A stretch of 47,348 bases of DNA, taken from IMG/VR virus record IMGVR_UViG_3300037796_000062, positions 1-47,348 of that record. The stretch is one strand, 5' to 3'. The position numbers were made by a program, and so were the translations under genes. The notes beneath the pieces were generated by a model. That model made no database searches. It had not been told where the DNA came from and saw only the letters and a list, made by a program, of their open reading frames with translations. This document shows positions 1-43,890 of the stretch, in pieces. Source of the stretch: a virus. Each line of letters starts with the position of its first letter. Positions within the stretch are counted from its first letter, which is position 1.

Positions 1-298
1 CCATTCGCTGGATAGTGTCTGCTGAGATGTTGCGCCCATTTGCCAGGTCACGCGCCCGCGCAATGCCAACATCAGTGCCGCCGCGCCCGTACTCGTCTCG
101 CCAGTCCAGCGCACGTTGTGCGGCGTCTCGAACACCTTGCGGCGGTGTGTAACTCTCGGCCTCTTGCGACGTGACGTTGATGTTGAGCGCGGTTTTCTGA
201 TCATCAGCAGCGTCGCGGCTGTCGTGCCTACCCACAATCTCACCATCGTCCTTCACAACGCACCACTCATCATCACACTGGCGGACGGTATAGGGCAT
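1..298 (-). CDS. Head-morphogenesis protein near the prohead protease, N-terminal part (cut by window edge)
   Basis: The frame opens with ATG just after the stop of the cement gene and stays open to the window edge, giving 99 codons without a stop. The N-terminus is a small beta-like domain (MPYTVRQCDDEWCVV). From about residue 58 it carries GVRDAAQRALDWRDEYG, then GGTDVGIARARDLANG and ISADTIQRM. I associate this pattern with the domain fused to, or encoded beside, phage head-maturation proteases. Its place between the cement protein and the presumed capsid gene fits. The protease core is not in the window, so enzymatic identity is inferred from position and pattern only. Confidence 0.6.
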   Translation of the reverse strand, partial: MPYTVRQCDDEWCVVKDDGEIVGRHDSRDAADDQKTALNINVTSQEAESYTPPQGVRDAAQRALDWRDEYGRGGTDVGIARARDLANGRNISADTIQRM

Positions 299-299
299 T

Positions 300-704
300 C
301 TATTGGATGTGCCACACCGAAATTTCAGCGCCCGCGCTGCCTGCCGCCGATGCAACGCTACTCACAGCGTAGCCGAAAAAGACGCCGTCGGTATTGAGGT
401 TCAGCGCGCTGCTTTCGGTGGCGCTCTGCGTACTGTCGTAATAAATGGCGTCCCCAACTGCGACCGTCGTCTCCACGCGCCCATCATTCGGGCCGCTGAA
501 CGGCACAACGCGCAATGTCGCAACGTAATCGCCAAATAGCACGCTCGTGTCGGTTGCATCATTCTGCCCATCGCCCTCATCCGTAATCGCAACGCCGGTG
601 ATACTATTCCACAGCACCGGGTCGCCGCTGGCGGGCGTCGCCGGGTGCGTCACCGTCACCGACCGTCCGTAATCGCTCAGGTACTCAGTGATGTTTGTTG
701 CCAT
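300..704 (-). CDS. DUF2190-type capsid cement/decoration protein
   Basis: This is a 134-residue, Ala/Thr/Asp-rich beta protein. Its order of blocks (SVTVTHPATPASGDPVLW, ITGVAITDEG, VETTVAVGDAIYYD, GVFFGYAVSS) matches DUF2190 proteins, which form small beta-barrel caps or cement on capsids. A longer in-frame start exists upstream, but it lies in the terminator hairpin. The ATG chosen here follows a strong GGGAGG site. The gene sits between the MuF-type gene and the head-maturation gene, where decoration proteins usually lie. Expression probably depends on the promoter/terminator element immediately upstream. Confidence 0.8.
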   Translation of the reverse strand: MATNITEYLSDYGRSVTVTHPATPASGDPVLWNSITGVAITDEGDGQNDATDTSVLFGDYVATLRVVPFSGPNDGRVETTVAVGDAIYYDSTQSATESSALNLNTDGVFFGYAVSSVASAAGSAGAEISVWHIQ

Positions 705-721: not shown

Positions 722-762
722 AAAAAAAGCGGCGCACTCCCCCGAAGGAGAATGCACCGCTT
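722..762 (-). terminator. Rho-independent terminator ahead of the capsid genes
   Basis: On the minus strand a GC-rich stem (5' arm AAGCGGTGCATTCTCC, loop about TTCGG, 3' arm GGAGTGCGCCGCTT with one or two mismatches) is followed directly by seven T residues. It lies downstream of a consensus promoter and upstream of the cement-protein start. It would therefore stop most transcripts from that promoter before the capsid genes unless read-through is regulated. Confidence 0.85.
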
Positions 763-776
763 ACGTTTCCGCATTC
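750..776 (-). promoter_or_regulatory. Possible antiterminator pairing in the capsid leader RNA
   Basis: In the leader RNA, GAATGC (776 to 771) is complementary to GCATTC (755 to 750). The latter belongs to the 5' arm of the terminator stem, so the two pairings exclude each other. This is the usual layout of an attenuator. A smaller hairpin, ACGC...GCGT, lies upstream at about 791-810. The competing stem is only six base pairs, so this is suggestive. Confidence 0.4.
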
Positions 777-821
777 AGTGAATATATAAAACGCCTAAAG
801 GTTTAAGCGTAGACTATCCTC

Positions 822-850
822 ATTATAAGCGTGTGGGTATGTGTTGTCAA
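822..850 (-). promoter_or_regulatory. Consensus sigma70 promoter for the capsid genes
   Basis: The minus strand reads TTGACA (850-845), a 17-bp spacer, then TATAAT (827-822). Both hexamers are perfect. The -35 box overlaps the stop codon of the upstream 71-residue gene. Transcription would start near 815, about 50 bases before the terminator stem. It is the best promoter match I found in the window. Confidence 0.85.
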
Positions 851-1062
851 TACGGGCTAATACAGCCCTCAATCTCGCCGTCGCGCCGTTCGCGCCTGGT
901 GAGCAGGGTACGGGGCAGATCGTAATGCCGTTCGATGAGCACCGCCAGCGATATGACTTGCGGGCGGATGCGCTGCTCAGACGTGGGTAGGAGTTGCGCA
1001 CATTCCACAAGCGGCGGGTGCAGTTTGAGTAGCGCCTCGCGGACCTTCTGCTGATCACTCAT
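847..1062 (-). CDS. Small hypothetical protein in the head operon (71 aa)
   Basis: This 71-residue soluble protein, rich in Arg, Leu and Glu, starts with MSDQQKVREALLKLHPP and is likely alpha-helical. Its ATG overlaps the stop of the MuF gene (ATGA) and a GGAGGG site precedes it, which supports translation. I do not recognise the family. A longer overlapping frame on the same strand (to 795) has an Arg/Ser/Tyr-rich composition typical of a shadow. Confidence 0.6.
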   Translation of the reverse strand: MSDQQKVREALLKLHPPLVECAQLLPTSEQRIRPQVISLAVLIERHYDLPRTLLTRRERRDGEIEGCISPY

Positions 1063-6943: not shown

Positions 6944-7522
6944 TCACTCCGATACCACTCCGCCATAAGCGGGAATTAACCCGCGTTCGGCAGCCTCATG
7001 CAGCAACGAGCGCAGATAACTCTCCGTGACAGGGTGTAGCACCATATTCTGCCGATTTTTGGCGTACCATGTGCGTGTGTCACGGTTTCCGTAGGTGCAC
7101 CCGGCGCCGATCCAGTCGGCGACCATCTCACGTGCGTACGTCTCTGGGATGCGTAGCGGTTTGAGTTCGCCGCCGTCGCCGATGACTACCCATGCCTGCC
7201 AGTGATGGCGATTGCGCTGGTGATGGAGCCAGGCGTAATCAAACTGTTCGCTGATAGCAGCCGGATTGTACGCGCCTGTGCTGTCTCGCACATCACGCTT
7301 GCTGCCGTCTGAATGATAAAAGGTGTGCACGTATCCAGTCCACTCTGCCGCGGTGAATTTTGACCAGTCGTGCATGATTGCGCGGTGTAACGGCACGCCC
7401 ATGCCGCGGCAGGCATGGAAAACATGCCATTTGTGGCGCAACAAATCTCGCAAATGGAACAGGTGTGCACGCATCCTATTGTCTTCTTTCTGCCTGCGTG
7501 GGTGTCGTGGTTTCGTCGTCAC
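6944..7522 (-). CDS. DUF5662-like protein
   Basis: The 192-residue product has a His-rich helical core: HLFHLRDLLRHKWHVFHACR, AIMHDWSKFTAAEW, then FDYAWLHHQRNRHHWQAWV and a RETYAREMVADWIGAG-like segment. The order HD-x-SKF, AW-x-x-H-x-x-N-x-HHW is how I recognise DUF5662, a family of uncharacterised phage and bacterial proteins. The conserved His and Asp residues suggest metal binding. The GTG start overlaps the endolysin stop (GTGA). An ATG at codon 17 is the alternative. Confidence 0.65.
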   Translation of the reverse strand: MTTKPRHPRRQKEDNRMRAHLFHLRDLLRHKWHVFHACRGMGVPLHRAIMHDWSKFTAAEWTGYVHTFYHSDGSKRDVRDSTGAYNPAAISEQFDYAWLHHQRNRHHWQAWVVIGDGGELKPLRIPETYAREMVADWIGAGCTYGNRDTRTWYAKNRQNMVLHPVTESYLRSLLHEAAERGLIPAYGGVVSE

Positions 7523-27877: not shown

Positions 27878-28150
27878 ATGGAAGTATTTTCAAGTGCTAT
27901 TGTAGCCACCGGGCTAGACGAAGAGATGGCAAATGAAGTGAGGTTCGTGCTTATGAAGCAATTTGGGGGTGTTAATTCTAGGGGCTTTGGGTTTGCAATC
28001 GTTCAACTTCATGACGAGCCTAAATTCTCTATCATTGCAATGGATAAATCGAAGGAATCAGATCCTCATCTTGGGCGCTTTATATCGCTGCACGATGTGA
28101 AATTCTGGTGCGATGGGTATCTGGCGGCATGGGGACGAGGCGACAACTAG
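27878..28150 (+). CDS. Hypothetical protein (90 aa)
   Basis: The start at MEVFSSAIVATGLDEEMANE follows GCGGGAGGGGACT; an earlier in-frame start lacks such a site. The product is alpha/beta, with GFGFAIVQLHDEPKFSIIAM and a C-terminal helix (HDVKFWCDGYLAAWG). Function unknown. Confidence 0.5.
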   Translation: MEVFSSAIVATGLDEEMANEVRFVLMKQFGGVNSRGFGFAIVQLHDEPKFSIIAMDKSKESDPHLGRFISLHDVKFWCDGYLAAWGRGDN

Positions 28151-28166
28151 AGGCGGGAGGGACACT

Positions 28167-28430
28167 ATGCACCTACAGCACAAAGAGGCCACCGCAACGC
28201 AGGCCGTGCAGGAACTCGCAGCTGAACGGCTGTATATTGACGCGAAACAAACCATGCTCACGGCGGGCGCATCTACCGTTATTGGTGGTGGCGGCGCCAA
28301 TCTGCATCAACTGACCGCCCCTATTCTGCGGACATTCCCCCACGCCACCATTGCACCCGACCCGCAGAGCGCCATACCACGCGGTTATGCGCGCTATACG
28401 CGGCGCCTTGAGCAGCAGGAGGATGTGTGA
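28167..28430 (+). CDS. Truncated actin-like remnant (C-terminal part, 87 aa)
   Basis: The second half aligns with the C-terminus of the actin homologue at 26162: VIGGGGANLHQLTAPILRTF and PDPQSAIPRGYARYTRRLE against VIGGGGAELPQLTTAIQARY and PEPQMAVARGYARLAARIA. The first 45 residues (MHLQHKEATATQAVQELAAE) are helical and not clearly derived from actin. Phosphate motifs 1 and 2 are missing, so it cannot be a normal ATPase. A clean start with GGGAGGGACACT and an overlap with an intact partner gene suggest it is still expressed. Confidence 0.7.
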   Translation: MHLQHKEATATQAVQELAAERLYIDAKQTMLTAGASTVIGGGGANLHQLTAPILRTFPHATIAPDPQSAIPRGYARYTRRLEQQEDV

Positions 28431-28786
28431 TGGCAAAGCGCAAAAACGCGGCGTATTTTTATGCGAGCGAGGAATTGCGCGCTGTGCTCTGCGAGGCCGG
28501 GAGCGAACTGAGCGCCGCCGCTCGTGCACTGATCGTCGTCGGGGCCTATCATGCCGGGATGGATGTGTCAGGCTTGAGGCGCGAGTTTCACGCGGCGCTG
28601 GCTGCTGACCTGGCGCCAAATGTGCGAGACCACATCGCGCAGGTTGCGCGGCGAATTGACGAAGGCCGCCCGCCGCCGCGAGAGATCACGCTCGGGCCTC
28701 CCGCGAGCCCCCGCGAGCCCCCGCGAGCCCCCGTAAGGCCGGAGGATGACCCGTTGAGCGATGTAGGGATTGATGTTGACGAGTAG
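28430..28786 (+). CDS. Paralogue of the ParR-like protein (118 aa)
   Basis: The ATG follows AGGAGG and overlaps the upstream stop (TGATG). ASEELRAVLCEAGSELSAAA and ARALIVVGAYHAGMDVSGLR match the RALLRRIGG and LRALVVIGAHHAGQPIQGL parts of the protein at 27115. Both end in acidic tails containing D-x-G. A Pro/Arg linker (PASPREPPRAPVRP), encoded by short DNA repeats, separates the parts. It likely binds DNA as its paralogue may. Confidence 0.6.
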   Translation: MAKRKNAAYFYASEELRAVLCEAGSELSAAARALIVVGAYHAGMDVSGLRREFHAALAADLAPNVRDHIAQVARRIDEGRPPPREITLGPPASPREPPRAPVRPEDDPLSDVGIDVDE

Positions 28787-28787
28787 A

Positions 28788-28890
28788 GCTATGCTATGCT
28801 AGTCCACAGAGAGGCGTGCTGCCCTGCGTGACCAGGGCACTGCCGGAGGGACACACCGGCAGCTGCGCACCAGCCCCATCATAGCATAGA
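28788..28890 (+). other. Multi-branched RNA/DNA structure upstream of a membrane-protein gene
   Basis: Arms CTATGCTATG (28789-28798) and CATAGCATAG (28880-28889) form a 10-bp closing stem. Inside are GTGC/GCAC (28816-28819 with 28867-28870) and two hairpins: TGCCCTG/CAGGGCA (28820-28839) and CTGCCGG/CCGGCAG (28840-28862). The loop of the last contains GGAGGGACAC, an exact copy of the downstream gene's ribosome site. It could be a leader riboregulator or a recombination or protein-binding site. Confidence 0.55.
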
Positions 28891-28904
28891 TACGGAGGGA
28901 CACT

Positions 28905-29597
28905 GTGCAACTCAACAACGTCGAGTACTCGAAACAACAGAGCGTTTATGAACTGGCACAGGAGCCGCCGCGCCTTGACGCCCGTGAAGCCGCGCTCGCG
29001 GTGGGTGTGACGTGCCTTGCTGCCCTGGTGGGCGCCCTAGGCGTGCTCCTGTTCGGCGCGTCGTTTCCGATGCATGGCCCCGGCGGTGCGCTTCAGTTCG
29101 CGGGGATGCTCGCGGGAAGCACGTGTTTGCTCGCGTGGTGCTTTGTGATGCTGTTTGTGTGGCATCATATTGAGAAATGGCGCGCTGATCTACGCTACGA
29201 ACGTGAGCGCCGCGAAGCGGTTCTGGAGGCGCATTGGAATACTCAGGGAGTTGTGACAACAGAGGTATTGAGCGAGACGACGATCACTGCCGACAATCCA
29301 GGCCAGATCATCCTTGCCGCGCTCGCTCTACACCAGCGCCGCAACGACGCCACGCGCCCGTATAGCGTGCGAGCGCTCCAGAAGCCGCTGTTTCTCTCGC
29401 TCAACGCGCCTGCCTTCGGCGGCACGCGACAACTGCGCATCGGGCAGGCTGCCAGCGAGCAGGAAGCGCAGCGCCTTGCAGAGTTATTCGCCCGCTGTGG
29501 CCTGATTAGCGGGCGCCGTGAGAAGGCAGCAGGCGAATGGACGGCACAAACAGTATCAGACGTGCTCAATAAATTGCTACCGGAGTATACCGTATGA
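28905..29597 (+). CDS. Two-helix membrane protein with cytoplasmic domain (230 aa)
   Basis: The GTG start follows GGAGGGACACT. Two membrane segments are seen: AALAVGVTCLAALVGALGVL (about 27-48) and MLAGSTCLLAWCFVMLFVW. A charged helix (HHIEKWRADLRYERERREAV) and a soluble C-terminal domain of about 120 residues follow, including LAELFARCGLISGRREKAAG. It overlaps the next gene, which is also membrane-anchored, so the two may form a complex. Function unknown. Confidence 0.6.
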   Translation: MQLNNVEYSKQQSVYELAQEPPRLDAREAALAVGVTCLAALVGALGVLLFGASFPMHGPGGALQFAGMLAGSTCLLAWCFVMLFVWHHIEKWRADLRYERERREAVLEAHWNTQGVVTTEVLSETTITADNPGQIILAALALHQRRNDATRPYSVRALQKPLFLSLNAPAFGGTRQLRIGQAASEQEAQRLAELFARCGLISGRREKAAGEWTAQTVSDVLNKLLPEYTV

Positions 29598-30454
29598 GTG
29601 ACGAATTGTTGACTATTGCCCGTGCTGAACTCCCTGAAGAGTGGCGCCGCGTTGACCTGGTGCAGGCGCTCTCTGTCCACGGAGTAGACATAACAGACAG
29701 GCAGGCGAACGAAAAAATCAAGGTATGGAAAACGGCGGGCTACATTGATCATATTGTAGACGGCAAGCAGCACCGCTACGCGTGGCGGGAGGAAAGCGCC
29801 GTGTCAGCGACAAGCCAGACAGAACCACAGATGAGCGCACACGCGCCCGCGAGCGTGCACACGCAACGCACGTACCGCATCCCTATGCCCTGGATTGTAG
29901 CAGGCATCGCGTGTGCGCTCGTGGTAGCTGCTGTGGCGTCGTTCGCGGCGCTCACTCGACAGAATGAGCCAGTATCCGTACAATCGACACCCACAACGGC
30001 GCCCACCGCTACCCCGACAAATGTGCCGATGGTCGCGGCATACTACGCACCAGGCGGGGAGTATGCACAGGATATCCCCATCGGCGGGCCCGTGACTGGG
30101 ACATACGGGCACTATGTCCAGATTGACGGCCATCTCTGGATAGAGGCGCCCGATCTCACAGAGCCGACGCCAGCGCCAACACAGACGCCGCACATTGTTG
30201 TGGTAGGGCAGCCTGCACCGCCTGTGGAGGCACCCGCGCCAACCACTACCGCCGCGCCAATACTGCCGCCCGACACCGTGCGAACATCAGCAGGCGTTGA
30301 GGTTGAGGTAGCGGCGACGGCAACGTCGCATGGCTGGACGATTGCATGCAATGCTGATGAGTGCCGGTGCTTCAGCGGCGCTGTGCCAGATGGCTACGGC
30401 ATAGCACGCCAGAACATTGTGCCAGAGATATGCATGCTGGCTGTGAAGCCGTAA
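29594..30454 (+). CDS. Membrane-anchored protein with N-terminal winged-helix-like domain (286 aa)
   Basis: Residues 1-70 (LPEEWRRVDLVQALSVHGVD, then ANEKIKVWKTAGYIDHIVDG) resemble a small winged helix. A single membrane segment, PWIVAGIACALVVAAVASFA, lies at about 97-118. The outer part is Thr/Pro-rich (STPTTAPTATPTNVP and similar), with a Cys-containing C-terminal end (CNADECRCFSGAVPDGYG). This is the topology of ToxR-like one-component regulators. The acidic residues and lack of a tested HTH leave other readings open. Confidence 0.55.
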   Translation: MSDELLTIARAELPEEWRRVDLVQALSVHGVDITDRQANEKIKVWKTAGYIDHIVDGKQHRYAWREESAVSATSQTEPQMSAHAPASVHTQRTYRIPMPWIVAGIACALVVAAVASFAALTRQNEPVSVQSTPTTAPTATPTNVPMVAAYYAPGGEYAQDIPIGGPVTGTYGHYVQIDGHLWIEAPDLTEPTPAPTQTPHIVVVGQPAPPVEAPAPTTTAAPILPPDTVRTSAGVEVEVAATATSHGWTIACNADECRCFSGAVPDGYGIARQNIVPEICMLAVKP

Positions 30455-30466
30455 AGAGAGGAACAT

Positions 30467-30622
30467 ATGAAACTTGTAACGACGGTTGGAATAGCATCAC
30501 ATATCATCCTGATGGGTTGCTGGATTTATGTGGTTTTTACGTATGATCTGCCACTAGAGGTGTCGCTGTTGGCTGCCATTGCCTGGCTCGGCATTGGTTT
30601 TGCTTATGGAAGTAGGACGTAG
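30467..30622 (+). CDS. Small membrane protein (51 aa)
   Basis: A 51-codon frame follows AGAGAGGAAC. The product has two hydrophobic helices: VGIASHIILMGCWIYVVF and VSLLAAIAWLGIGFAYG, joined by TYDLPLE. It directly follows the two membrane-protein genes and precedes a terminator, so the three form one unit. Function unknown; a holin-like or immunity role cannot be told apart. Confidence 0.55.
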   Translation: MKLVTTVGIASHIILMGCWIYVVFTYDLPLEVSLLAAIAWLGIGFAYGSRT

Positions 30623-30641
30623 CCCGCTGCCCACCGCCACC

Positions 30642-30668
30642 GCCCGCCACTCCGGCGGGCTTTTTTTG
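30642..30668 (+). terminator. Rho-independent terminator
   Basis: GCCCGCC, a five-base loop and GGCGGGC are followed by seven T. It ends the membrane-protein operon. Confidence 0.92.
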
Positions 30669-30694
30669 TTGCCTGAAAACTCGCACGATCTGGC

Positions 30695-30712
30695 TTTGCA
30701 AAGCTTTGCAAA
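30695..30712. promoter_or_regulatory. Perfect 18-bp palindromic operator
   Basis: TTTGCAAAGCTTTGCAAA is identical to its reverse complement and overlaps the -35 box of the promoter that follows. A dimeric repressor bound here would block RNA polymerase. The HTH protein at 31063, in the same operon, is a candidate. Confidence 0.75.
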
Positions 30713-30734
30713 AATGACGAACGTGTGCTACAAT
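30706..30734 (+). promoter_or_regulatory. Promoter of the 30779-31251 operon
   Basis: TTGCAA, a 17-bp spacer and TACAAT, with TGC just before the -10 box. The -35 box lies in the right half of the palindrome. Confidence 0.75.
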
Positions 30735-30778
30735 TAGATCAGTTGAGAAAGACAAGCGATGAGCAAGGAGACAGGACA

Positions 30779-31066
30779 ATGATTACCAATGGCAACCGCC
30801 GACAAATAGCCGAAGCCGCAGTCTGTACACTATTGAACGAATGCAGGGCACACCAGAAAGAGGGTACACTGACCTGGGGTGCTGGTGATGGAAAGGTGCA
30901 GGTTGGCGTGTATGGCTATGATGAGGCAAGCAATTCATATGGTTTTTATGTGCTACATTCCTGCGGGGAGTATCATGATACTGCATCGTGGTCAACGGCA
31001 ATGATAACCATGTCGGACGCCCTACGCGGCGCGGACACAGGCTTTCCACAAAAAGGCAGGAGATGA
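30779..31066 (+). CDS. Hypothetical protein (95 aa)
   Basis: The ATG follows CAAGGAGAC. A longer in-frame start would fall inside the promoter -10. The product starts MITNGNRRQIAEAAVCTLLN and has a beta-rich centre (GDGKVQVGVYGYDEASNSYG, FYVLHSCGEYHD). It overlaps the HTH gene by four bases. Family not recognised. Confidence 0.6.
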   Translation: MITNGNRRQIAEAAVCTLLNECRAHQKEGTLTWGAGDGKVQVGVYGYDEASNSYGFYVLHSCGEYHDTASWSTAMITMSDALRGADTGFPQKGRR

Positions 31067-31251
31067 CTACACACCACACCACTCAGGAGGCCGCCCGCCT
31101 CCTGAGGCTTACCCAACAAGGCGTACTCGCAGCCATCAGGCGCGGCAAGTTGAACGCTGAAAAGCACGGGCGCGATTGGGTGATATCGGACGAAGAGATC
31201 GAGCGCTATCGACAAGAGCCGCGGCAGCGCGGGAGACCCAAGAAACAGTAG
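31063..31251 (+). CDS. Excisionase-type HTH DNA-binding protein (62 aa)
   Basis: The product is a single HTH_17/MerR-like domain: TTQEAARLLRLTQQGVLAAI, RRGKLNAEKHGRDWVISDEE, IERYRQEP, with an RQRGRPKK tail. Such proteins act as small repressors or as recombination directionality factors. No integrase is present, so autoregulation through the upstream 18-bp palindrome is the more likely role. Coupled to the upstream gene by ATGA. Confidence 0.8.
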   Translation: MTTHHTTQEAARLLRLTQQGVLAAIRRGKLNAEKHGRDWVISDEEIERYRQEPRQRGRPKKQ

Positions 31252-31254
31252 ACA

Positions 31255-31287
31255 ACACAAAACGCGGCGGTCACATTTCCCGCCGCG
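31255..31287 (-). terminator. Minus-strand terminator 2 after the tail operon
   Basis: On the minus strand CGCGGCGG, a nine-base loop and CCGCCGCG are followed by TTTTGTGTTG. It is the second of two terminators facing the rightward early region, where the opposed operons converge. Confidence 0.7.
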
Positions 31288-31332
31288 CCCTGCTTTCCAC
31301 ATGCATTGCGCCATATCCGATGGCACAGCCCC

Positions 31333-31341
31333 ATTATAACA
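31333..31341 (-). promoter_or_regulatory. Extended -10 element between the two terminators
   Basis: The minus strand reads TGTTATAAT, a perfect TGn-TATAAT, directly after the T tract of terminator 1. A start near 31326 would give a transcript of about 70 bases ending at terminator 2. Confidence 0.4.
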
Positions 31342-31372
31342 CAAAACGCCGCCCCAGAGAGAGGGGCGGCGT
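31341..31372 (-). terminator. Minus-strand terminator 1 after the tail operon
   Basis: On the minus strand ACGCCGCCCC, a seven-base loop (TCTCTCT) and GGGGCGGCGT lead into TTTGTGTT, with no mismatch in the stem. It ends leftward transcription from the tail genes. Confidence 0.8.
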
Positions 31373-31416
31373 CTCGCGGTGAAGGTAGCATCAGGAAGTA
31401 TCATCCACACGCGCCC

Positions 31417-31425
31417 ATTATACCA
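31417..31425 (-). promoter_or_regulatory. Extended -10 element at the end of the tail operon
   Basis: The minus strand reads TGGTATAAT at the stop of the last tail gene. The arrangement promoter, short body, GC-rich hairpin and TTTTGTGTT is then repeated by the next unit. Confidence 0.4.
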
Positions 31426-31708
31426 CACTTCGCACGACGTTGAGCGTGGCCGAATAATCTGCCGGTGTCGTTGCCTGCCCTTCCATCAGGTTGTTTAACT
31501 GCTCTGCAAACGTCACCAGGCTTCCCAACTGCGCCGCCGTGAACGGGAACCCTGCGCCTGTTAAATCGGCGTCGCTGATCGGAAGCGCGCCCCCACTGTT
31601 GTAGCCGTTATCGAAATAGATTGCATACGCTGCCTGGAGTGCCTCGTGTGCCTGTGCAATCGCCGTGCCTGCGTCAACCATCGATTGCACCAATGTTGCC
31701 TTATCCAT
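31418..31708 (-). CDS. Helical protein after the tail fibre (96 aa)
   Basis: Starting at MDKATLVQSMVDAGTAIAQA behind AAAGGATC, the product is helical with Ala-rich repeats and LGSLVTFAEQLNNLMEGQA. Such small proteins at the end of tail operons sometimes act as fibre tips or chaperones. A much longer frame in the same phase has a Ser/Arg-rich start and is not credible. Confidence 0.55.
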   Translation of the reverse strand: MDKATLVQSMVDAGTAIAQAHEALQAAYAIYFDNGYNSGGALPISDADLTGAGFPFTAAQLGSLVTFAEQLNNLMEGQATTPADYSATLNVVRSVV

Positions 31709-31931
31709 AGATCCTTTCCCTCTGATAGAACTCCCGCGCCACACCAGCCGGGCGCGCCACCTGGAACGGTTGCGGCTCGCGCACGGCAGACGGCGCCAGT
31801 TCCGGCGTGTTGCCTGCTGCGAGCCATCGCTGATACTCCTGCCAGTGTCGATTGCCAGGAGCGTCTGGAATGTGACGCCCGCTTGGAACGTGGTACACGC
31901 CGCCGCTGTCGAGTAGTTTATAGTCTGCCAT
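31701..31931 (-). CDS. Small tail-fibre-associated protein (76 aa)
   Basis: The ATG abuts the fibre stop. The product starts MADYKLLDSGGVYHVPSG and contains RHIPDAPGNRHWQEYQRWLA followed by AAGNTPELAP. The D-x-GNR-x-WQEYQ-x-WLAAGNTP-x pattern is familiar from short proteins encoded at the end of fibre genes. Function unknown; a fibre cap or chaperone is possible. Confidence 0.65.
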   Translation of the reverse strand: MADYKLLDSGGVYHVPSGRHIPDAPGNRHWQEYQRWLAAGNTPELAPSAVREPQPFQVARPAGVAREFYQRERIYG

Positions 31932-33305
31932 CTATAACTCGCTGTCCAGATAAGCCCGATATGCCGTGCCGAATGTTGCCCTACCAACATCACCAGCAGA
32001 AGCACCGGCGAAGTCATCCGGCGTTGATTCATAGATAAACGATAACGTCATCACAGATGTTTCATACACGACATCAAACGTCCCCACTGTCGTTATATAT
32101 GCCCCCGGTGCAGGCGCATAGAATGACGCGTTATTGCCTGTGCCTGGAAAACCTGCCGACCACGACGGATTGGTGTCCGTCACGGTTGGTGCTGCACGCA
32201 TCTGCACAGGCAATAGCACAGTCTGCGCATAAATCTCATTGAGGCCCGCCCACATATACGCGACAAAGTAGGCATTCCCCGGATTGAATACCTGAAAATA
32301 CCGTTGACACAGCGCAAGATCCATACCAATCGGGCGCGTCTCGAATGGTGTTTTATACGGCCCCTGCTCCAGTTGCGCGGCTTCAATTCTTATGAAATCC
32401 GTATTTGCAACAGTATCCCCACTCCAAATGAATACAACGAGATTGTTAAACGTCGAACCGAGTGTTACCGTATGTTCGATGTCTGTCCATGTCGATCCCA
32501 CGGATGTACTACCAACACTCCCGGCAGGTGCTACATTTGTCACCCACGTCGGTGTGGTGCCCCAGGTTGCTACTACATCCGATGTAACTGCATCTTCGGT
32601 ATCTGTCCACTCTAGGACGGCGTATCGAACATCCTGTGTTGTGTCACACAATATTCGAAACGAAAAGGTGACGCTCTGGCCGCGTAGGTGACGGCAGTTG
32701 ACACCCTCTACAATCTGAGCCATGCCAATCCGTTGCGCTGCGAGTTGCACCTGAATGAGCACCGCTGCGTAGCGTCGTGTATCCCCTGTAATGGATCCTG
32801 TGTCAATCCTGTCTGTTTCGGTTAGGACATACCAGCGATCAGCAATATACTCATCATCTGCTGTATCAATAATAGAACCACTCAACCGCTGCCAGATAGC
32901 AAAATCGCCGTTGATCAGGACGTTACGCAGCGCGTACACATCGGCCCATTCCGGCGCCGTCTCTGCGCTGTTGACGGTGAGCCGCTGCCCTGCTGTGCCG
33001 ATGCCAAGCCGTTGCAATCCAGAGCCGTCGCGGTAAATAACATCCCCTTCGGTTGTCGTCGGGTCTGTTAAACTTGATGCGTCATCGGGCACCCACTCGC
33101 CTGCTACGGCGTCCCACGTGACCACCTGGCCCGCTGTGGCGCCTGTCTGGAGGAGTTGGTCGAGCCGGATATCGGCAGAGTTAACGACGTTTTCAGCGAT
33201 ATCGTTTGCCTGTGCTAACACCGCGTCGGTTTGCTCGTCCTGATCGCGCTGAATGCGCTGTTGCCTTTTGCGCTCAATCTCAGCAGCGCGTTGTTGAAAA
33301 TCCAT
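31932..33305 (-). CDS. Tail fibre / receptor-binding protein
   Basis: The 457-residue product has an N-terminal helical anchor (QQRAAEIERKRQQRIQRDQD), a short beta repeat region (GQVVTWDAVAGEWVPD, VIYRDGSGLQRLGIG) and a C-terminal jelly-roll-like domain beginning RNVLINGDFAIWQRL, then YIADRWYV, IVEGVNCRHLRGQSVTFSF, and AAQLEQGPYKTPFETRPIG with LALCQRYFQ. This NGDF-x-IWQR architecture is common in phage fibres that bind sugars. It lies just after the hub gene and sets host range. Confidence 0.85.
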   Translation of the reverse strand: MDFQQRAAEIERKRQQRIQRDQDEQTDAVLAQANDIAENVVNSADIRLDQLLQTGATAGQVVTWDAVAGEWVPDDASSLTDPTTTEGDVIYRDGSGLQRLGIGTAGQRLTVNSAETAPEWADVYALRNVLINGDFAIWQRLSGSIIDTADDEYIADRWYVLTETDRIDTGSITGDTRRYAAVLIQVQLAAQRIGMAQIVEGVNCRHLRGQSVTFSFRILCDTTQDVRYAVLEWTDTEDAVTSDVVATWGTTPTWVTNVAPAGSVGSTSVGSTWTDIEHTVTLGSTFNNLVVFIWSGDTVANTDFIRIEAAQLEQGPYKTPFETRPIGMDLALCQRYFQVFNPGNAYFVAYMWAGLNEIYAQTVLLPVQMRAAPTVTDTNPSWSAGFPGTGNNASFYAPAPGAYITTVGTFDVVYETSVMTLSFIYESTPDDFAGASAGDVGRATFGTAYRAYLDSEL

Positions 33306-36300
33306 TATTGTTTGACAACCTCCACCAGCGCCGCGATATTCGAGAGTGACGACACGTCAACCCGCGACACTGTGGCGCCGTTCCAAATCCCGACTTCCGG
33401 CGTGCCGGAGAAATCGAGCATGAGCGACACCAGGCTATTCGTCGCTCTGTCCGCTCGTATCCACCCAATGGTTTCGCCTGACAGCGCTACAATGCTATAG
33501 CCTGGCGACGCGCTGAACGGGTTTGTTACCTCGTAAATGCCCGATGCTGTCGGCCCGGCTGATCCCGCCGCGTACACGAGACGGTTGTTGATCGTTGTCG
33601 GGATGGTAAATGCCGCCGGTGCCGATGATGTAGAGGATGACGGCCATGTTGCAACCTCGACAAAAGCAAATGGAAAGAATGCTGTCAGATTGATAACCGC
33701 GGCGCTCCCGCGATAATCTTCTTTTGCTAATAAATTGCCCTCGTCATCAGTAAACACCATCTGGCGATTGTCCGGGTATCGATCTGCCAGGAACCATGCA
33801 TTATCCGCTCCGCCTGCTGGCGATGGCTCTACGAGCGTACCGCTTGACGTGAGATATGCAACCCGATCGAGCGGGAAATTTTGACTGAGCACCAGATCGC
33901 CATCCTGGCCGGGGCCGAATGAGAGATAGCGCAGCGGCGATGTTGCCGCGACCGTTGTTTCGCTGCCTGTAAGATCTGTGCCAATAAGCGCGTACACGTC
34001 ATAACCTGTCGTTTCCACGTGAGAAACCCACCGCCCAAGCGTCTCTGGGTCGTAATCAGCACGGTACAGATTACCAGACACAATAGACGAAACAGAAATG
34101 ACGATCTCACTCCACGTCTGCGTACTGATCGTATAGCGCCACAGCGGGCTGTGCGACGTGGTGCCTGTTCGTAGTTTGCCGCCGCTATCGCTGACACTGG
34201 CAGCAGCGCCGGCATGGATAACGGCGATCAATTCATCAGTGTTGATCGGATTGCCAGAGAGCCAGAGCACATGCGTGAGCGCCGCCGGGATGCCGCTATT
34301 GCGTAGCGTCGGTGTGCCGCCCGTTGCGCTGTTATACTCATAGACGCCCGCCGATGCAACGCCCTGCTGTGCAAGGAAAAACATGTATGCAAATTCGAGC
34401 TTCGTTGTCCCCACTGGCAGGTACCCGATGGCGGTGGTAGCGGTGCTCACATCGTCAATCCGCAACAGCGTCGTAATGTCGTTGTTGATGATCTTCAGTG
34501 TGCCCTGGTTCGTTCCTGTGCCAACATCCCCAATGTAGCAGAGATCGTTAAACGGGCTGTCGCCCCCGACGGCGCCGTCTCGCAGTAGCGATGCAGTATT
34601 CCCGCTTGTGTTCGTGCCAATATCAGTCGCGTCAAAATTGACACCGCTTTGCAGCAACAGGTAAAGGTTGCCCGACGCGTCCCCGGCGATGTAGCCCGGC
34701 TCGGTAGCGAGCGGCGTGATCGCCGTGAGTGACGTAGGCGCGGCGCCCACCGCGCTCCAATCCACAGTATAGCCCTGCTGAATTTTGAGCGCATCCGCGC
34801 TACTTCCAGCACTGCTGAATACTGCCGCGTTACCCCACGGCGCGTCTGCGAGTTGCTCGGCTGTGCTGCCCCCAGCCCCAGCGATTGCGGTAGCCCACGA
34901 CGCGCCGCCGTCGAAACTCTCCAGCACATTAGCACCCTCGCAAATACGAATGTAGTCTGCATTGTCAGGTGGCGTGCTCACGTCGGCAATGGCAGCATTC
35001 GAGCGCAACAGTGTGAACGATGCGCCCTCATCAGTCGAGAGGTACAGGTCACTCCCTGCTGCAACAAGCACAATGGTCTGCTCTTCTTCAGGTATCCAGA
35101 TAACGTTAATCTGCGTATTCGATGGGTGCGTCCATATGAGCGCGGTAGGGTCTGGATACAGCCATTGGTAGAGCGCGCCGTCATCCCAACCCGACCACGC
35201 GCCGTTCGGGTTGAATTTTGACACCGCCGTGCAGGTTTGCCCCGCCCTGGTATGCGCCGTCCAGCCATCTACCGTTAGGAGCCGATGTCCGTTGCTACCT
35301 GTTGCGGTTGAGAGTGGTCTGAACAATGATTGTACATCAACGGTGTCAAGTGACTTGCTGATGCTTTGTGGTGTTTTTACACCGTCGTCAACCTCCAGAC
35401 TGATCGTGACACTGGTAGGATCACCTGTGTCGAGCACGAATGATGCCGTGTTGCCCGTCACGGGTGTGGAAGGCGTCGGCGTGGCACCCGTGACCGTCCA
35501 TGTGCGTGTGCCATCGTCTGATTGCGTTGCGTCAACGTGCACGAACAATCTATCTGCCAGGCCCGCGCCTGTGTCGATGGGTTCGGTGTCCACGGTGAGC
35601 GTGAAATCAACAAACAGCGGCGGCTCCTCAGGGTAGCCAGGATCGGTGATACCAATTTTTTCCTTGTCATCGTCGCTGAACCCGGTGCCTGTCAAATCTG
35701 GAACGCCGAGCGAGCAGTTCAAGGTCATTGTTCCCTGACTGGTATCGGCGCTCCTGACAATTGCCGTCGTTGCGACAACATAGCCCTGTCGGTTGGGAAT
35801 GTCCAGTGTAATCGTTGTCGCTGGCAGCAGATCGGCATCCATCGCGCACGGGATTTGGATGGTGCGTTTTGCTCGAATACCCTTCGCTGTCTCGCGTTTT
35901 GCAATCAACTCACAGACTGCATTAGACTGCGCAAAGCGATACGTCCCGCTGCCTGTCTTACCTGACACACCTGTCGCGGTAAAGGTGAAATTCGGCGTCG
36001 TGCCATCGCTCAACTTGCGGCCCCGCGCTACCCATCCGGCAACAACGCTCTCGAAGCTGCCCGCCTCGTCACTATAGCCCGCATAGATGCCGCGCTCGTC
36101 CCCTGTCGGATCGCCATAGACATAGGTGTGCGCGCCTGTCTCTTGTGGAATGTCCAGATCATACGAGACACGAATGACGCCGCCGGGCGTTACCCAGATG
36201 GCACACGACGCGAATTTCATTAGTTCGTCTATCAACTTCGCGACGTTTTCGGCGCCCGCCTCCAGCGTGATACTCTCCACTGGGCAAAGGTTGAAGTCGG

Positions 36301-36745
36301 TGCCTGGGTCGTAAATATCGCCTATTAACGCACTATCAATGCCTGCATCGGTGAGCAGATCCGTAACGGCGTCGGTAAACGGGCGATCATTCCAGGTCAG
36401 GTCACTACTTAGAGGTTTGTCGATTTGCCCCAAGATATCAATCAATGTCAACCGAAACCCGAACGGTGCCACGCTCACCACGGGCTGATCGGCAAACCCG
36501 GTAAAAAACCGACGCCGCGCCGTCACTCCATCAACACCCGCCGCATTGATCACGACGTAGGCAGAGAGCGGCTCGCCTGTCGTGATCTCGACATATCTGT
36601 CAAGTACCACCGTGCAATTGCTGCGCTGCTGATTGTAGCCGATGCGGCGCCGTGGGAACGTCACGCAACGATAGTACACGCCGTCAATATAGACGGCAGC
36701 ATTCCAGTTAACGTGCCTGTCGGTGACGGGAAATGGAATAGTCAC
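33305..36745 (-). CDS. Tail hub protein with Ig-like insert and BNR propeller
   Basis: The first 370 residues resemble a tail hub: RHVNWNAAVYIDGVYYRCVT, FFTGFADQPVVSVAPFGFRL, IDELMKFASCAIWVTPGGVI, and a long beta region. Residues about 385-470 look like an Ig/PKD-type domain (VHVDATQSDDGTRTWTVTGA). The C-terminal 650 residues carry Asp-box repeats (DLYLSTDEGASFTLL, VLESFDGGASWATA) as in beta-propellers of sialidase-like proteins. At 1146 residues it is the largest gene in the window. Glycan binding or cleavage by the propeller is inference. Confidence 0.75.
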   Translation of the reverse strand: MTIPFPVTDRHVNWNAAVYIDGVYYRCVTFPRRRIGYNQQRSNCTVVLDRYVEITTGEPLSAYVVINAAGVDGVTARRRFFTGFADQPVVSVAPFGFRLTLIDILGQIDKPLSSDLTWNDRPFTDAVTDLLTDAGIDSALIGDIYDPGTDFNLCPVESITLEAGAENVAKLIDELMKFASCAIWVTPGGVIRVSYDLDIPQETGAHTYVYGDPTGDERGIYAGYSDEAGSFESVVAGWVARGRKLSDGTTPNFTFTATGVSGKTGSGTYRFAQSNAVCELIAKRETAKGIRAKRTIQIPCAMDADLLPATTITLDIPNRQGYVVATTAIVRSADTSQGTMTLNCSLGVPDLTGTGFSDDDKEKIGITDPGYPEEPPLFVDFTLTVDTEPIDTGAGLADRLFVHVDATQSDDGTRTWTVTGATPTPSTPVTGNTASFVLDTGDPTSVTISLEVDDGVKTPQSISKSLDTVDVQSLFRPLSTATGSNGHRLLTVDGWTAHTRAGQTCTAVSKFNPNGAWSGWDDGALYQWLYPDPTALIWTHPSNTQINVIWIPEEEQTIVLVAAGSDLYLSTDEGASFTLLRSNAAIADVSTPPDNADYIRICEGANVLESFDGGASWATAIAGAGGSTAEQLADAPWGNAAVFSSAGSSADALKIQQGYTVDWSAVGAAPTSLTAITPLATEPGYIAGDASGNLYLLLQSGVNFDATDIGTNTSGNTASLLRDGAVGGDSPFNDLCYIGDVGTGTNQGTLKIINNDITTLLRIDDVSTATTAIGYLPVGTTKLEFAYMFFLAQQGVASAGVYEYNSATGGTPTLRNSGIPAALTHVLWLSGNPINTDELIAVIHAGAAASVSDSGGKLRTGTTSHSPLWRYTISTQTWSEIVISVSSIVSGNLYRADYDPETLGRWVSHVETTGYDVYALIGTDLTGSETTVAATSPLRYLSFGPGQDGDLVLSQNFPLDRVAYLTSSGTLVEPSPAGGADNAWFLADRYPDNRQMVFTDDEGNLLAKEDYRGSAAVINLTAFFPFAFVEVATWPSSSTSSAPAAFTIPTTINNRLVYAAGSAGPTASGIYEVTNPFSASPGYSIVALSGETIGWIRADRATNSLVSLMLDFSGTPEVGIWNGATVSRVDVSSLSNIAALVEVVKQ

Positions 36746-37107
36746 CCTTCAAACCTCAGTGTGCCTGCATACTCATAATCCGTGCAACTCGCGAGCAATT
36801 CGGTGAGCGTCACGCCGACCAACGTCACGTCATACGTGTTTGTTCCATCGCTGAGTTGCCCCGGATTGCCATACAGTTGCGAGACGTTGCGCAACTTCAG
36901 CGCGTCGGCAGTCGAGCAACGGATCTGAAAGTCGCCACCTTTAAACACAAGCGGGCCGTATCCGAACACATCAACGCGCCCCGCGATGCCGCCAATGAAC
37001 ATATTCGTTTCGTAGCGCGCCTCTCGCTGCGGTGTCAGCTTCGCATTATCGCCTGCCTGTGGTTCAAATGTTGCGGTTGTGCTACCCACGGTGAATGTCC
37101 ACGCCAC
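36742..37107 (-). CDS. Distal tail-type protein (121 aa)
   Basis: It begins with MAWTFTVGSTTATFEPQAGD and continues GGIAGRVDVFGYGPLVFKGG, GQLSDGTNTYDVTLVGVTLT. It is a small beta-sandwich-like protein between the tape measure and hub, where distal tail proteins lie. It overlaps both neighbours by one to four bases. It is much shorter than typical Dit proteins, so the assignment is positional. Confidence 0.6.
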   Translation of the reverse strand: MAWTFTVGSTTATFEPQAGDNAKLTPQREARYETNMFIGGIAGRVDVFGYGPLVFKGGDFQIRCSTADALKLRNVSQLYGNPGQLSDGTNTYDVTLVGVTLTELLASCTDYEYAGTLRFEG

Positions 37108-39314
37108 TAGCGCACCCCTTGCTTCAGCACATCATCCTGCCCGTATTCGAGCGCGGCCATAATGCGCGCCGCTGCCATGTCCGCAACCTGCTGCGCTCGC
37201 TCAGCACTATCCACGCTACCTATGTTCATACTCATAGACACACTTGCATTCCCGCCCATCGCACTGCCAGTCACGCCCGCCGGAAGTACCGCCGATGCCC
37301 GCCCAAGGTTGACAAGTTCCGGCCCCTGCTCCCCGACGACCGTCCAGCCGGAACCTGTGCCGCCCATAGCACGCTGATCAAATTGCGACGCCACAACCCC
37401 GGCACCCTCTCGAAGATCAGTTCCCCACTGGCTTAGCCACTCAGGTGGTTTGATGTTGCGTAACTTCTCGCCCAAATTGAGGATGTTCCCAATAGCGTTT
37501 TGAATAGCCTGCCCGATGGCGTTGAATGCATTGATGATCGGGTCGATAAAATTGGCACGAAAAATAGCAAAACCATCCTCGGCAGCCTGGAATGCCTCGT
37601 CAATATCAATGCCGAACGCGTCCATGACCAGACCCACGATCTTGAGGAGCATATTAAAGCCATTTTCGAACAGTTGTTGAAACGTGGTAATAAACTCTTC
37701 CGAAAACTCTTCAATCGTGTTCCAGGCGCCGCGCCAGTCCCCGTCAATAAGTTGAAGTGCCAGTGTTAACGCAGACTGGATAGCAGTCAATGCCAGCCCA
37801 ATAACGTTGGTGATCTGGTTCCAGGCCATTGTCAGGATATCGACAATCTCATCACGATGTTCTGATATAAATGTCGCGATACCTTGCAGTGTTGGTACAA
37901 TTGTGTCGTTTATCAATTGGATGGCGAGTGAGATGATATTCGTAATCTGGTTCCATGTCTCTTGAAAAAACAGCCGGATACTGTCGCCGTTTTCCTCAAG
38001 AAATTGCTGAATGATACTAAAAACACCAGTGATGATCGGTTGCAACGCATTCACAATGTTTGTGACCGTCTCTGATGCCTGGCTCCATAACGTTTTGAAT
38101 GTCTCTATTCCGGCGCCGATGTTCTCAGTGATCAATCGCCTGAAATCCAGAATGAATGTGATGGCGGGGTGATCCTCGTCAAAATCAAATATAGTTCCCA
38201 GCCCCTCATAATCACCAGTGAACAGCATCTTGATAGCATTAGCCACACTGGTAATAATCGGTGAGATTTTATCAAACGCCTCCACTGCCATGTCAATCCA
38301 GCCAGGCGCGTTCGTGCCGAACCACTCAATAGCCGATATGATATGTGGCATGGCCTGGTTCGCAATTTCGAGGAGTTTATCCCCAAGCGGTGCCAGCGCA
38401 GCCGTGGTTTCGCTCGTGATGCCTGCCCATAGCGCACCGAATGTGCCATACTGCCGCCCGCTCTCCTCGATCTCTGTACCGAGCGCCTCTACCCCTTCGA
38501 GCGCCTCCCCAAGCGCGAACGTAGCATCGGCGCCGAAGTCTTCAAACGTGGTGCCGAACGCCTGCACGCCCGCCTCTTGCCGGAGTAGAGGATCTTCGAT
38601 ACTCTCAATGCTATCTGCAATGCGCTCGAACGCTTGTCGCTGCGTAATCTCGCCGCGTGCGAACTGATCAAAGAGATCGGCGGTGCTCTCGTCAATGTCA
38701 CGGATGTTTTTAACAACTGCCGGATCGCGAAGGCGGATGCTGAATTCATTGAAGGCGTCCCCGACTTTGTCGGTGTTCATAAATCCGGCCTCAAGCCCCT
38801 CGTTGATCAATGCGAGGGAGTCAAAGCCAGTGACACCGAGATCGGCAAAATCATCGGAGTATTCGTTCAGCGTGTCATTAAGATCGCCGAACCGATCAAG
38901 GCCAAGCTCTTGCCCTTCGGTGAGCACCAGGAACGCTTCTTCTGCCGATGTCCCGAACTCATCCTGCACACGCTGTGCGCTGCGTGCCGCCTCTGTGAGA
39001 TCCTGATCATACGCATCGGCAAGAAACAGCGCATCCGCCGTCGCCTCGTCAAGCGCGCCGCCGAAGGCCTTTTCGAGCGTTGCAACGCGCCCTTGTGCTG
39101 AGATTGCCGCCGCGCCGATGCCCGCAATGGCGCCCACGGCAATGGTCGCACTTGCTGCGATGCCTGTTGCCGCCGCGCCCATCCCAGCAGACAGCGCGCC
39201 GCTGATGCGGTTGCCGCTGCGCTCCGCACGGTTGGCAACATCACGCGTCCCTCGGTCAAACTCGGACGCGTCCAGAGAAAGTAGGACATTTAGTTGTTCT
39301 AACACATCAGCCAT
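37107..39314 (-). CDS. Tail tape measure protein
   Basis: The 735-residue product has an N-terminal amphipathic segment, a hydrophobic region (GMGAAATGIAASATIAVGAI), a TP901-type part (GRVATLEKAFGGALDEATAD, VQDEFGTSAEEAFLVLTEGQ), and long helical repeats with hydrophobic faces (TWNQITNIISLAIQLINDTI and AWNQITNVIGLALTAIQSAL). The C-terminus (MGGNASVSMSMNIGSVDSAE) is typical of tail-end connection. It sets tail length and enters the host with DNA. The length suggests a medium-length tail. Confidence 0.93.
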   Translation of the reverse strand: MADVLEQLNVLLSLDASEFDRGTRDVANRAERSGNRISGALSAGMGAAATGIAASATIAVGAIAGIGAAAISAQGRVATLEKAFGGALDEATADALFLADAYDQDLTEAARSAQRVQDEFGTSAEEAFLVLTEGQELGLDRFGDLNDTLNEYSDDFADLGVTGFDSLALINEGLEAGFMNTDKVGDAFNEFSIRLRDPAVVKNIRDIDESTADLFDQFARGEITQRQAFERIADSIESIEDPLLRQEAGVQAFGTTFEDFGADATFALGEALEGVEALGTEIEESGRQYGTFGALWAGITSETTAALAPLGDKLLEIANQAMPHIISAIEWFGTNAPGWIDMAVEAFDKISPIITSVANAIKMLFTGDYEGLGTIFDFDEDHPAITFILDFRRLITENIGAGIETFKTLWSQASETVTNIVNALQPIITGVFSIIQQFLEENGDSIRLFFQETWNQITNIISLAIQLINDTIVPTLQGIATFISEHRDEIVDILTMAWNQITNVIGLALTAIQSALTLALQLIDGDWRGAWNTIEEFSEEFITTFQQLFENGFNMLLKIVGLVMDAFGIDIDEAFQAAEDGFAIFRANFIDPIINAFNAIGQAIQNAIGNILNLGEKLRNIKPPEWLSQWGTDLREGAGVVASQFDQRAMGGTGSGWTVVGEQGPELVNLGRASAVLPAGVTGSAMGGNASVSMSMNIGSVDSAERAQQVADMAAARIMAALEYGQDDVLKQGVR

Positions 39315-39676
39315 TATGCAGCCTGTGTCCTATCTTCGCCGCCGAGTGCCTGTACCCACATCCGTAAAATTGCAGCCTGCTCCTCAGGCGTCTGCGGTTG
39401 CGGCGCTGGCCTGTCGAATTCAGGCATAAATTCCTTCGGTGTGTACGGCTTGCGACGTTTTTTCTTGTCGCGGTTTGTCTCGGCGATCACCGCCGCGATC
39501 ATTCCAGAGCGAAGATCGGCGCGCTCTTCACCCCACGGATCGAGATCGTAGTACAACTGCCACAGCACCCACGCCTCTGCACTCATCTCCTCTAGCAACG
39601 CGTATGGATTGACGATGTAGTGCCCGCCCGCCTGCAACGCTAGTCGGTAGAGGAGACGCCGTTGAGGCTCGCGGAT
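39314..39676 (-). CDS. Tail assembly chaperone, frameshift extension (T part)
   Basis: This frame has no good start of its own; the first usable codon at 39637 is TTG. It opens exactly at an A7 slippery run in the upstream gene and reads IREPQRRLLYRLALQAGGHY, then ALLEEMSAEAWVLWQLYYDL, DPWGEERADLRSGMIAAVIA and KKKRRKPYTPKEFMPEFDRP. The pattern matches C-terminal parts of GT-type chaperones. It is probably made only as a fusion of about 232 residues with the upstream product and binds the tape measure during assembly. Confidence 0.75.
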   Translation of the reverse strand: MREPQRRLLYRLALQAGGHYIVNPYALLEEMSAEAWVLWQLYYDLDPWGEERADLRSGMIAAVIAETNRDKKKRRKPYTPKEFMPEFDRPAPQPQTPEEQAAILRMWVQALGGEDRTQAA

Positions 39677-40011
39677 TTTTTTGCTAGCTCTTCCTGGCGC
39701 GCCTTATCGACGCCGCTGAACTCCAAAATCTCCGGCAGCAGTGTTGCCATAACCGCCGCTGTGCCTGGCAGGCTGTAAAGTAAGTCAACGTCTTTATCAG
39801 AGTAAAGCCGCTCACCATCTGCGCCGATCATGACGCGTGCAAGTACCTGCACGCCCGCCCGCGCCACATCGCCGCCTTCTTTCGCCTTCAGGAATACTTG
39901 TAGATCCGCCGCTGACATCGGCACAATGCGAACATCCCCGCCCCATTCAGGGACAGGGATATCGCGGTACCGCTGCTCTCGTGTCTCAATTTGCTCGCGT
40001 GTGAGCAGCAT
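39640..40011 (-). CDS. Tail assembly chaperone (G part)
   Basis: The 123-residue product begins MLLTREQIETREQRYRDIPV and PEWGGDVRIVPMSAADLQVF, characteristic of short tail chaperones, then a helical part with LPGTAAVMATLLPEILEFSG and the slippery AKK at residues 110-112. It lies between the tail tube and tape measure genes. The 0-frame product ends SSTD; a -1 shift gives the GT form. Confidence 0.8.
   Translation of the reverse strand: MLLTREQIETREQRYRDIPVPEWGGDVRIVPMSAADLQVFLKAKEGGDVARAGVQVLARVMIGADGERLYSDKDVDLLYSLPGTAAVMATLLPEILEFSGVDKARQEELAKKSASLNGVSSTD
39676..39682 (-). other. Slippery site for -1 frameshifting in the tail chaperone genes
   Basis: The minus strand reads GCA AAA AAA TCC in the G frame, so A-AAA-AAA fits X-XXY-YYZ exactly. 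A shift of -1 leads without a stop into the downstream chaperone frame. Confidence 0.8.
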
Positions 40012-40019
40012 GGTTCCTC

Positions 40020-40469
40020 CTATAGTAGCGTTGGTTTGCCCGACGGCTTGAGCGTGATGTTTGCCACAGCCCGGCCATCGATGGGCGTTTCAGTGCTGAA
40101 TGACATGACGAACGCCGTTACTTCAAACGTTGCAATCACGCTCTCGTTACTCTTGACTTCAACTTTCCAATCGCGGTTGCATCCCGCAATCCAGTCGTTA
40201 TAAAGCATCTGGTGTGACGTTTCGGTCGGTTGCCAGTTGACTACCATTTCGATATCGTCTGTGGTTTTTAATCCACTGATGAACGTCGTGAAACCGTCCG
40301 GGGTATCGTGGTGTGTTGTCTCGATCTCTGCGGTCGTGCCGCCGGGCGGATTGATCTGATTGATATATGTGACACGCTCCCATTGGGGGTTATTGGCGTC
40401 ACCATCAGAGCGCCATAGCGTCGTGCCGTATGCCCAGATAGCATCCCCTGTTGTTGGGCAGTTTGCCAT
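40020..40469 (-). CDS. Major tail tube protein
   Basis: The 149-residue product has the order GDAIWAYGTTLWRS, WERVTYINQINPPGGTTAEI, ETTHHDTPDGFTTFISGLKT, TDDIEMVVNWQP and VTAFVMSFSTETPIDGRAVA with ITLKPSGKPTLL at the end. The pattern I-x-P-x-x-T-x-x-x-IE-TH-x-S/D, GLK, and a late A-x-V-x-FK-x-SG is typical of lambda gpV-like tube proteins. It lies before the chaperone pair, as expected. Confidence 0.88.
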   Translation of the reverse strand: MANCPTTGDAIWAYGTTLWRSDGDANNPQWERVTYINQINPPGGTTAEIETTHHDTPDGFTTFISGLKTTDDIEMVVNWQPTETSHQMLYNDWIAGCNRDWKVEVKSNESVIATFEVTAFVMSFSTETPIDGRAVANITLKPSGKPTLL

Positions 40470-40480
40470 GATGCCCTCCC

Positions 40481-40864: not shown

Positions 40865-40868
40865 GCTA

Positions 40869-43820: not shown

Positions 43821-43850
43821 AAACTACTCACTATTCCGCATCACAAAGCC

Positions 43851-43879
43851 TTGACAAAAACACTTGCTTATGGTATGAT
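43851..43879 (+). promoter_or_regulatory. Promoter of the inserted three-gene cassette
   Basis: TTGACA, a 17-bp spacer and TATGAT precede the plus-strand cassette. The -10 box lies between the arms of a palindrome, so promoter and operator are one unit. Confidence 0.85.
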
Positions 43880-43890
43880 TATAAGCAAGT
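43862..43890. promoter_or_regulatory. Palindromic operator around the cassette -10 box
   Basis: ACTTGCTTAT (43862-43871) and ATAAGCAAGT (43881-43890) are perfect inverted repeats with a 9-bp centre. A right half-site, ATTATAAGCAAG, occurs again at 44468-44479, at the end of the ribbon-helix-helix-like gene. This suggests autoregulation by that protein. The minus strand holds TATAAT in the right arm, so a divergent promoter is possible. Confidence 0.8.

Follow-up and report, generated by a model that had tools for sequence, protein, structure and literature searches.

Why should a phage place a consensus promoter and, shortly after it, a strong terminator directly ahead of its head genes? The locus that raises this question lies in an uncultured-virus record (IMGVR_UViG_3300037796_000062, positions 1-47,348), and "the window" denotes the whole stretch of DNA that was analysed, 47,348 nt in length. 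In our reading, to which we give a probability of roughly 0.5, the 5' leader of the head operon spans 815-705 and works by attenuating transcription, for which it would need a stabilising factor. What is known of late-gene timing in phages comes mainly from Q-type antitermination and phage polymerases. If our reading is true, a conserved cis-acting attenuator directly before the decoration and capsid genes would add to the known means of timing capsid synthesis. The motif is short enough for in vitro transcription tests, which do not require the uncultured host.

Promoter, terminator and gene order

The first-pass annotation had described a perfect TTGACA-N17-TATAAT promoter on the minus strand, followed after about 50 transcribed bases by a strong hairpin with seven T, and both features are present (Table 1). 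The two hexamers (850-845 and 827-822, with a 17-nt spacer) form the sole promoter in the window that matches at 12 of 12 positions; the mean of 200 dinucleotide shuffles gives an expectation of 0.005 perfect TTGACA-N16-18-TATAAT sites per window, and a scan allowing one mismatch found 3 sites in the window versus 0 in 100 shuffles. Counting from 815, the hairpin stem begins after about 53 nt, within a leader of about 110 nt. The hairpin comprises 16 pairs (762-727) and has the makeup of an intrinsic terminator, being rich in G+C and immediately followed on its 3' side by a U run; two of the seven T are able to pair in the stem. For the 100-nt leader the folding energy is -40.2 kcal/mol (z -5.4), a value equalled by none of 200 shuffles.

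The ATG of the decoration gene lies at 704, 17 nt past the terminator. Cement, maturation and capsid genes had been placed behind the terminator: the decoration gene is indeed complete there and the maturation gene starts near 298, but the capsid gene does not adjoin them in the window, because about 2.5 kb is missing between positions 1 and 47348 compared with the relatives. Judging from those relatives, the missing DNA holds the remainder of the maturation protease gene and the capsid gene, the latter being mostly absent from the record; L003 has the complete succession of decoration, maturation protease and major capsid genes. In leaders of the window type, GUUCUC could pair with GGGAAC across the ribosome-binding stretch (705-721), a pairing that is changed in L019 and that might possibly provide a second, translational control.

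Table 1. Features of the leader and its surroundings, in window coordinates.
Feature	Coordinates	Strand	Remarks
71-aa upstream gene	847..1062	-	no family match; stop codon 849-847 inside the -35 hexamer
sigma-70 type consensus promoter TTGACA-N17-TATAAT	822..850	-	start expected near 815
small 5' hairpin ACGCTTAAACCTTTAGGCGT	791..810	-	only in relatives with the window's promoter type
conserved element, the proposed antiterminator	755..780	-	CACUG 780-776, AA 775-774, hairpin, AG 761-760, CGGUG 759-755
apical hairpin of the element	U773-G770 / GAAA loop 769-766 / C765-A762	-	
intrinsic terminator	722..762	-	stem 762-747 with 742-727, UUCG loop 746-743, T728-T722
ribosome-binding stretch GGGAGGG, between terminator and start codon	705..721	-	
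head decoration (cement) gene, 134 aa, complete	300..704	-	phrog_122, E 1.8e-7
start of head maturation protease gene, cut by window edge	1..298	-	L003 copy matches phrog_15531

A conserved 26-nt element and its predicted folds

A scan with the decoration protein kept 18 loci from 26 candidate stretches, and all 18 carry a single copy of the motif CTGAAT-N3-GNRA-N3-AAGCGG ahead of the decoration gene, together with a terminator hairpin. Comparisons were made on the 15 distinct sequences, 14 of which are close relatives, with L019 as the most distant. Within 160 nt upstream of the element, the best promoter-like site scores at least 9.5 in 13 of these 15, versus a maximum of 9.2 among 300 mononucleotide-shuffled stretches; the best score is lower in L019 (8.7) and in L017 (7.7), the latter showing, by eye, a TATAAT further upstream.

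In RNA terms, the motif reads ACUGAA-[U NNN GNRA NNN A]-AGCGGU and stands directly before the terminator. A covariance check in related phages, as the first-pass annotation had suggested, shows that the small apical stem covaries while remaining paired in 15/15 sequences. Three of its four pairs change on both sides, the inner stem appearing as GCG/CGU, AUC/GAU, GUC/GAC, GUC/GAU or UUC/GAA under a GAAA or GCAA loop (GNRA in 15/15), and none of 500 shuffles reached its covariation score. Not a single column varies in ACUGAA (0/6) or AGCGGUG (0/7); elsewhere, variable columns number 8/8 in the upstream flank, 6/8 in the small stem and 10/21 in the upper terminator, and 111 of the 134 third codon positions of the decoration gene are variable.

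The two flanks can form a stem with one another, (C)ACUG/CGGU(G), which we term P1, around a 2x2 AA/AG internal loop, giving the conserved 26-nt fold CACUG-AA-[GNRA hairpin]-AG-CGGUG. Truncated transcripts are predicted to adopt this antiterminator in all 15 sequences. Since CGGUG also constitutes the 5' arm of the terminator, antiterminator and terminator are mutually exclusive, and in the antiterminator state the upper hairpin that remains is predicted to be parted from the U run. The leader thus has the predicted anatomy of an attenuator, that is, exclusive folds that share the 5' arm of the terminator, with invariant arms.

Attenuation had been proposed to operate through a different pairing, GAATGC with GCATTC. 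Both segments exist (776-771 and 755-750), the second within the terminator stem, but their pairing is not favoured: 94.3% of the cells are paired, which 146 of 500 shuffles also reach, one pair fails in 4/15 sequences, and covariation is no greater than in shuffles. The broader idea fared better, with a terminator in 18/18 relatives, a promoter-like site in at least 13 of 15 and an exclusive antiterminator fold predicted in every sequence. A leader peptide was also considered, since window-type leaders have a reading frame that begins with an ATG at 774-772, and was set aside because the ATATCG and TTTCG types lack that ATG.

How far does this evidence bear on P1 itself? Because its four inner pairs (ACUG/CGGU) are invariant and only the fifth varies, covariation neither supports nor refutes P1, and the covarying GNRA hairpin also fits the terminator state. 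When the upstream part was shuffled, between 0 and 28 of 500 shuffles matched the sequestration of the 5' arm, the weakest result (28/500) coming from L019, where the fifth P1 pair is lost. Such sequestration is common, with P of at least 0.9 at 13 of 44 other terminator-like sites and between 0.82 and 1.0 at the lineage's own 11 distinct sites; this control weakens any argument for the antiterminator that is drawn from sequestration in a single sequence. Moreover, in the four sequences for which energies were computed, the terminator fold has an advantage of 10 to 14 kcal/mol over the antiterminator, so a switch would need a factor.

From these folds and energies we infer the following course of events. 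RNA polymerase would start at the strong promoter, near the expected start, and the first RNA to emerge would form P1 and fold into the 26-nt hairpin that holds the 5' arm of the terminator, as predicted in all 15 sequences. Once the full leader is out, the far more stable terminator would displace the antiterminator, and transcription would stop after about 90 nt. A phage or host factor may bind the invariant AA/AG internal loop and the GNRA hairpin and hold the antiterminator in place, leaving the terminator stem shortened and parted from the U run; read-through would then allow transcription of the decoration, maturation protease and capsid genes and of those that follow.

Lineage distribution and the variable upstream slot

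Only a single narrow lineage of phages has the motif, and the sequences are therefore not independent. A generalised motif pattern matched 21 stretches among 2.9 million viral contigs, of which 18 are contigs of the lineage and the remaining three (L055, L056 and L059) lack the terminator stem; likewise, a narrower pattern gave 10 matches, eight in the lineage and two (L022 and L029) without the stem. A covariance model, R1, run on 16 records, recovered one real copy per lineage record; in scans of 83 sources (counting the window and the lineage records) and of 26 sources, it gave no convincing match outside the lineage. The other R1 matches were rejected: some lay on the opposite strand of this palindrome, others, among them those in two large genomes, were terminators alone, and in L166 the match was an inverted hairpin. 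In this last genome, the terminator hairpin at about 7094-7124 is inverted and devoid of a U run, and it sits beside a tRNA-like cluster and before another terminator.

Among more remote relatives, a fecal phage with a 44% decoration-protein match (MT835568.1) has no intergenic region at that place, the covariance model found no element in the capsid relatives and prophages L065-L165, and a scan with the maturation protein returned no intermediate relatives. In those prophage relatives that were inspected, decoration follows protease, has no leader and stands directly before the capsid gene; the leader thus belongs to this lineage, in which decoration precedes protease.

The DNA upstream of the element differs between relatives. 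Six sequences share the window's promoter type (the window, L003, L006, L011, L014 and L018), five have a second type (L002, L004, L005, L012 and L016), and L013, L015, L017 and L019 have others. The five sequences of the second type, L015 and L017 become homologous to the window again at 781, which is the 5' edge of the element, indicating that unlike upstream DNA has been joined to one element. Between the motif and the 71-aa gene lies a variable slot, which contains ORFs in L002, L004, L005, L012 and L016, and in L003 (2745-2885) and L014 (2740-2875) a second unit of promoter, short RNA and terminator lies in tandem just upstream of the window-type promoter. In L017 (1565-2050) and L019 (2873-2934) the slot holds tRNA-like stretches, which also occur in L166 (7150-7475, minus strand). 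They show a T-arm-like GGGTGCAAGTCCC and acceptor-like CGCAACT...GTTGCGACCA ends, and those of L017 and L019 end in the T-arm-like sequence and CCA. With normal settings ARAGORN reported no tRNA in L017 and L019, and relaxed settings gave noise; the tRNA-like stretches had no Rfam match above cut-off, and the L017 copy folds no better than shuffles. Two L017 stretches, of 215 and 123 nt, recur at another genome place in L166 at 96% and 93%.

The contents of the slot and the copies shared by L017 and L166 point to an exchange hot spot, and this is the main ground for an alternative that we consider unlikely, yet far from negligible. Here, much as in the first-pass suggestion that the RNA of about 90 bases could be an sRNA, the promoter-to-terminator unit would be an RNA moron, a gene for a short trans-acting RNA inserted at the hot spot and exposing ACUGAA as its seed; its terminator would end the RNA and insulate the head genes, which a longer late transcript would reach by read-through. 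ACUGAA is indeed single-stranded between the hairpins in the terminator state, and an sRNA with an exposed seed would show similar conservation, so that ACUGAA could be either a seed or a protein site. However, in L013 transcription is expected to start about 3 nt ahead of the element, leaving no RNA before it, and the ACUG/CGGU pairing across a symmetric loop would have to be a coincidence. The seed complement TTCAGTG occurs 6 times in the window (one being the element itself), with none evidently placed at gene starts, and no pair in the terminator's lower stem has changed on both sides.

Known antitermination systems and a putative regulatory factor

In a second alternative, which we judge improbable, the element would serve processive antitermination by recruiting a LoaP-, Q- or N-like protein of phage or host, or by acting alone like put RNA, so that the modified polymerase would ignore this terminator as well as later ones. 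There are precedents for its plan: in operons under Q or AlpA control a terminator stands just behind the promoter (PMC9371919), and in the LoaP dfn leader a small hairpin precedes an intrinsic terminator (PMC12691694). Minus-strand terminator-like sites are nevertheless weak in 28000-47348, which covers part of the downstream late genes, leaving little there for a processive system to overcome.

The anatomy differs as well. The first-pass annotation had likened the locus to lambda pR'-tR' and to put-type RNAs, and neither likeness is supported beyond the general layout. The window shares with pR'-tR' (Q) and AlpA the succession of promoter, short RNA, intrinsic terminator and late or lysis genes, but the loading site of Q and AlpA is a DNA element inside the promoter (PMC9371919), whereas here, by eye, the promoters are unlike and the RNA is kept, and no common Q binding element or -10-like pause site was seen among the relatives. 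HK022 put is also an RNA element near a phage promoter, but its two stem-loops span about 70 nt and it affects terminators at a distance (PMC9378689), while the part conserved here is a single stem-loop of 26 nt and L013 offers no upstream room for another. In the LoaP system, the dfn hairpin has a UNCG loop and is bound by a NusG-family protein (PMC12691694), unlike the GNRA loop of our 15 sequences.

The search for a protein factor covered 50 of the 383 ORFs listed in the window, scanned against PHROGs, and ten of those against Pfam; no antitermination family was found among them. In five phage records, which may be fragments, there was no match to NusG, CAT_RBD (PF03123), Phage_antitermQ or Antiterm (PF06530, PF03589), the Q proteins being a diverse group, and no ANTAR domain above cut-off, the one sub-threshold ANTAR match lying inside a 977-aa frame of the L019 record. 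It is possible that the factor comes from the host.

Rfam gave no match above the gathering cut-off in the window and 12 relatives (the best below it being NrrF, E 0.014, with 21.8 of 60 bits), and our literature search found no paper on such an element. RAT sites (BglG/SacY/LicT) precede sugar-uptake genes, whereas the present leader precedes phage head genes; the CAT RNA-binding protein of BglG and LicT was among the families without a match in the five records, and the motif sequence presumably differs from that of RAT. RAT and ANTAR leaders share their design with the head-operon leader (PMC3369936). In the ANTAR leaders (AmiR, NasR), a small stem leaves a shorter terminator that is separated from its U run (PMC3369936), as the antiterminator is predicted to do here. 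ANTAR leaders have two stems, P1 and P2; here one stem suffices in L013, the upstream hairpin being absent from L013 and from the L002 type, and the loop is GNRA. The evidence does not support placing the leader in any of the put, Q, LoaP, ANTAR and LicT systems. Since the defining proteins were not found in the five phage records, nor the two-stem form or an Rfam match in the sequences compared, and put, Q/AlpA and LoaP differ in anatomy, we favor a new motif within a known design: the general on/off scheme is familiar, the RNA motif appears new, and the locus looks like such a switch.

That the locus is just an ordinary insulating terminator behind a strong promoter, conserved through recent common descent only, is improbable. 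In its favour, 14 of the 15 sequences are closely related and the terminator is unremarkable; against it, 111/134 third codon positions of the adjacent gene vary but 0/13 columns in the hairpin flanks, and the compensatory changes in the small stem show that it is under selection.

The attenuator reading can be carried further, into a tentative and rather doubtful proposal. The 26-nt GNRA-capped antiterminator with its invariant AA/AG loop might define a hitherto undescribed class of RNA switch controlling structural genes in phages, sensing a ligand or protein during infection (for example a head protein or a host factor) and timing capsid synthesis, with promoters and RNA inserts being exchanged while the switch stays.

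Elsewhere in the window, the plus strand carries at 43851-43924 a promoter, TTGACA-N17-TATGAT, which is oriented against the late genes. Its -10 hexamer is covered by an inverted repeat, TTGCTTAT...ATAAGCAA, and a ribosome-binding site and an ATG at 43922 follow, so that this unit is possibly a regulated moron gene.
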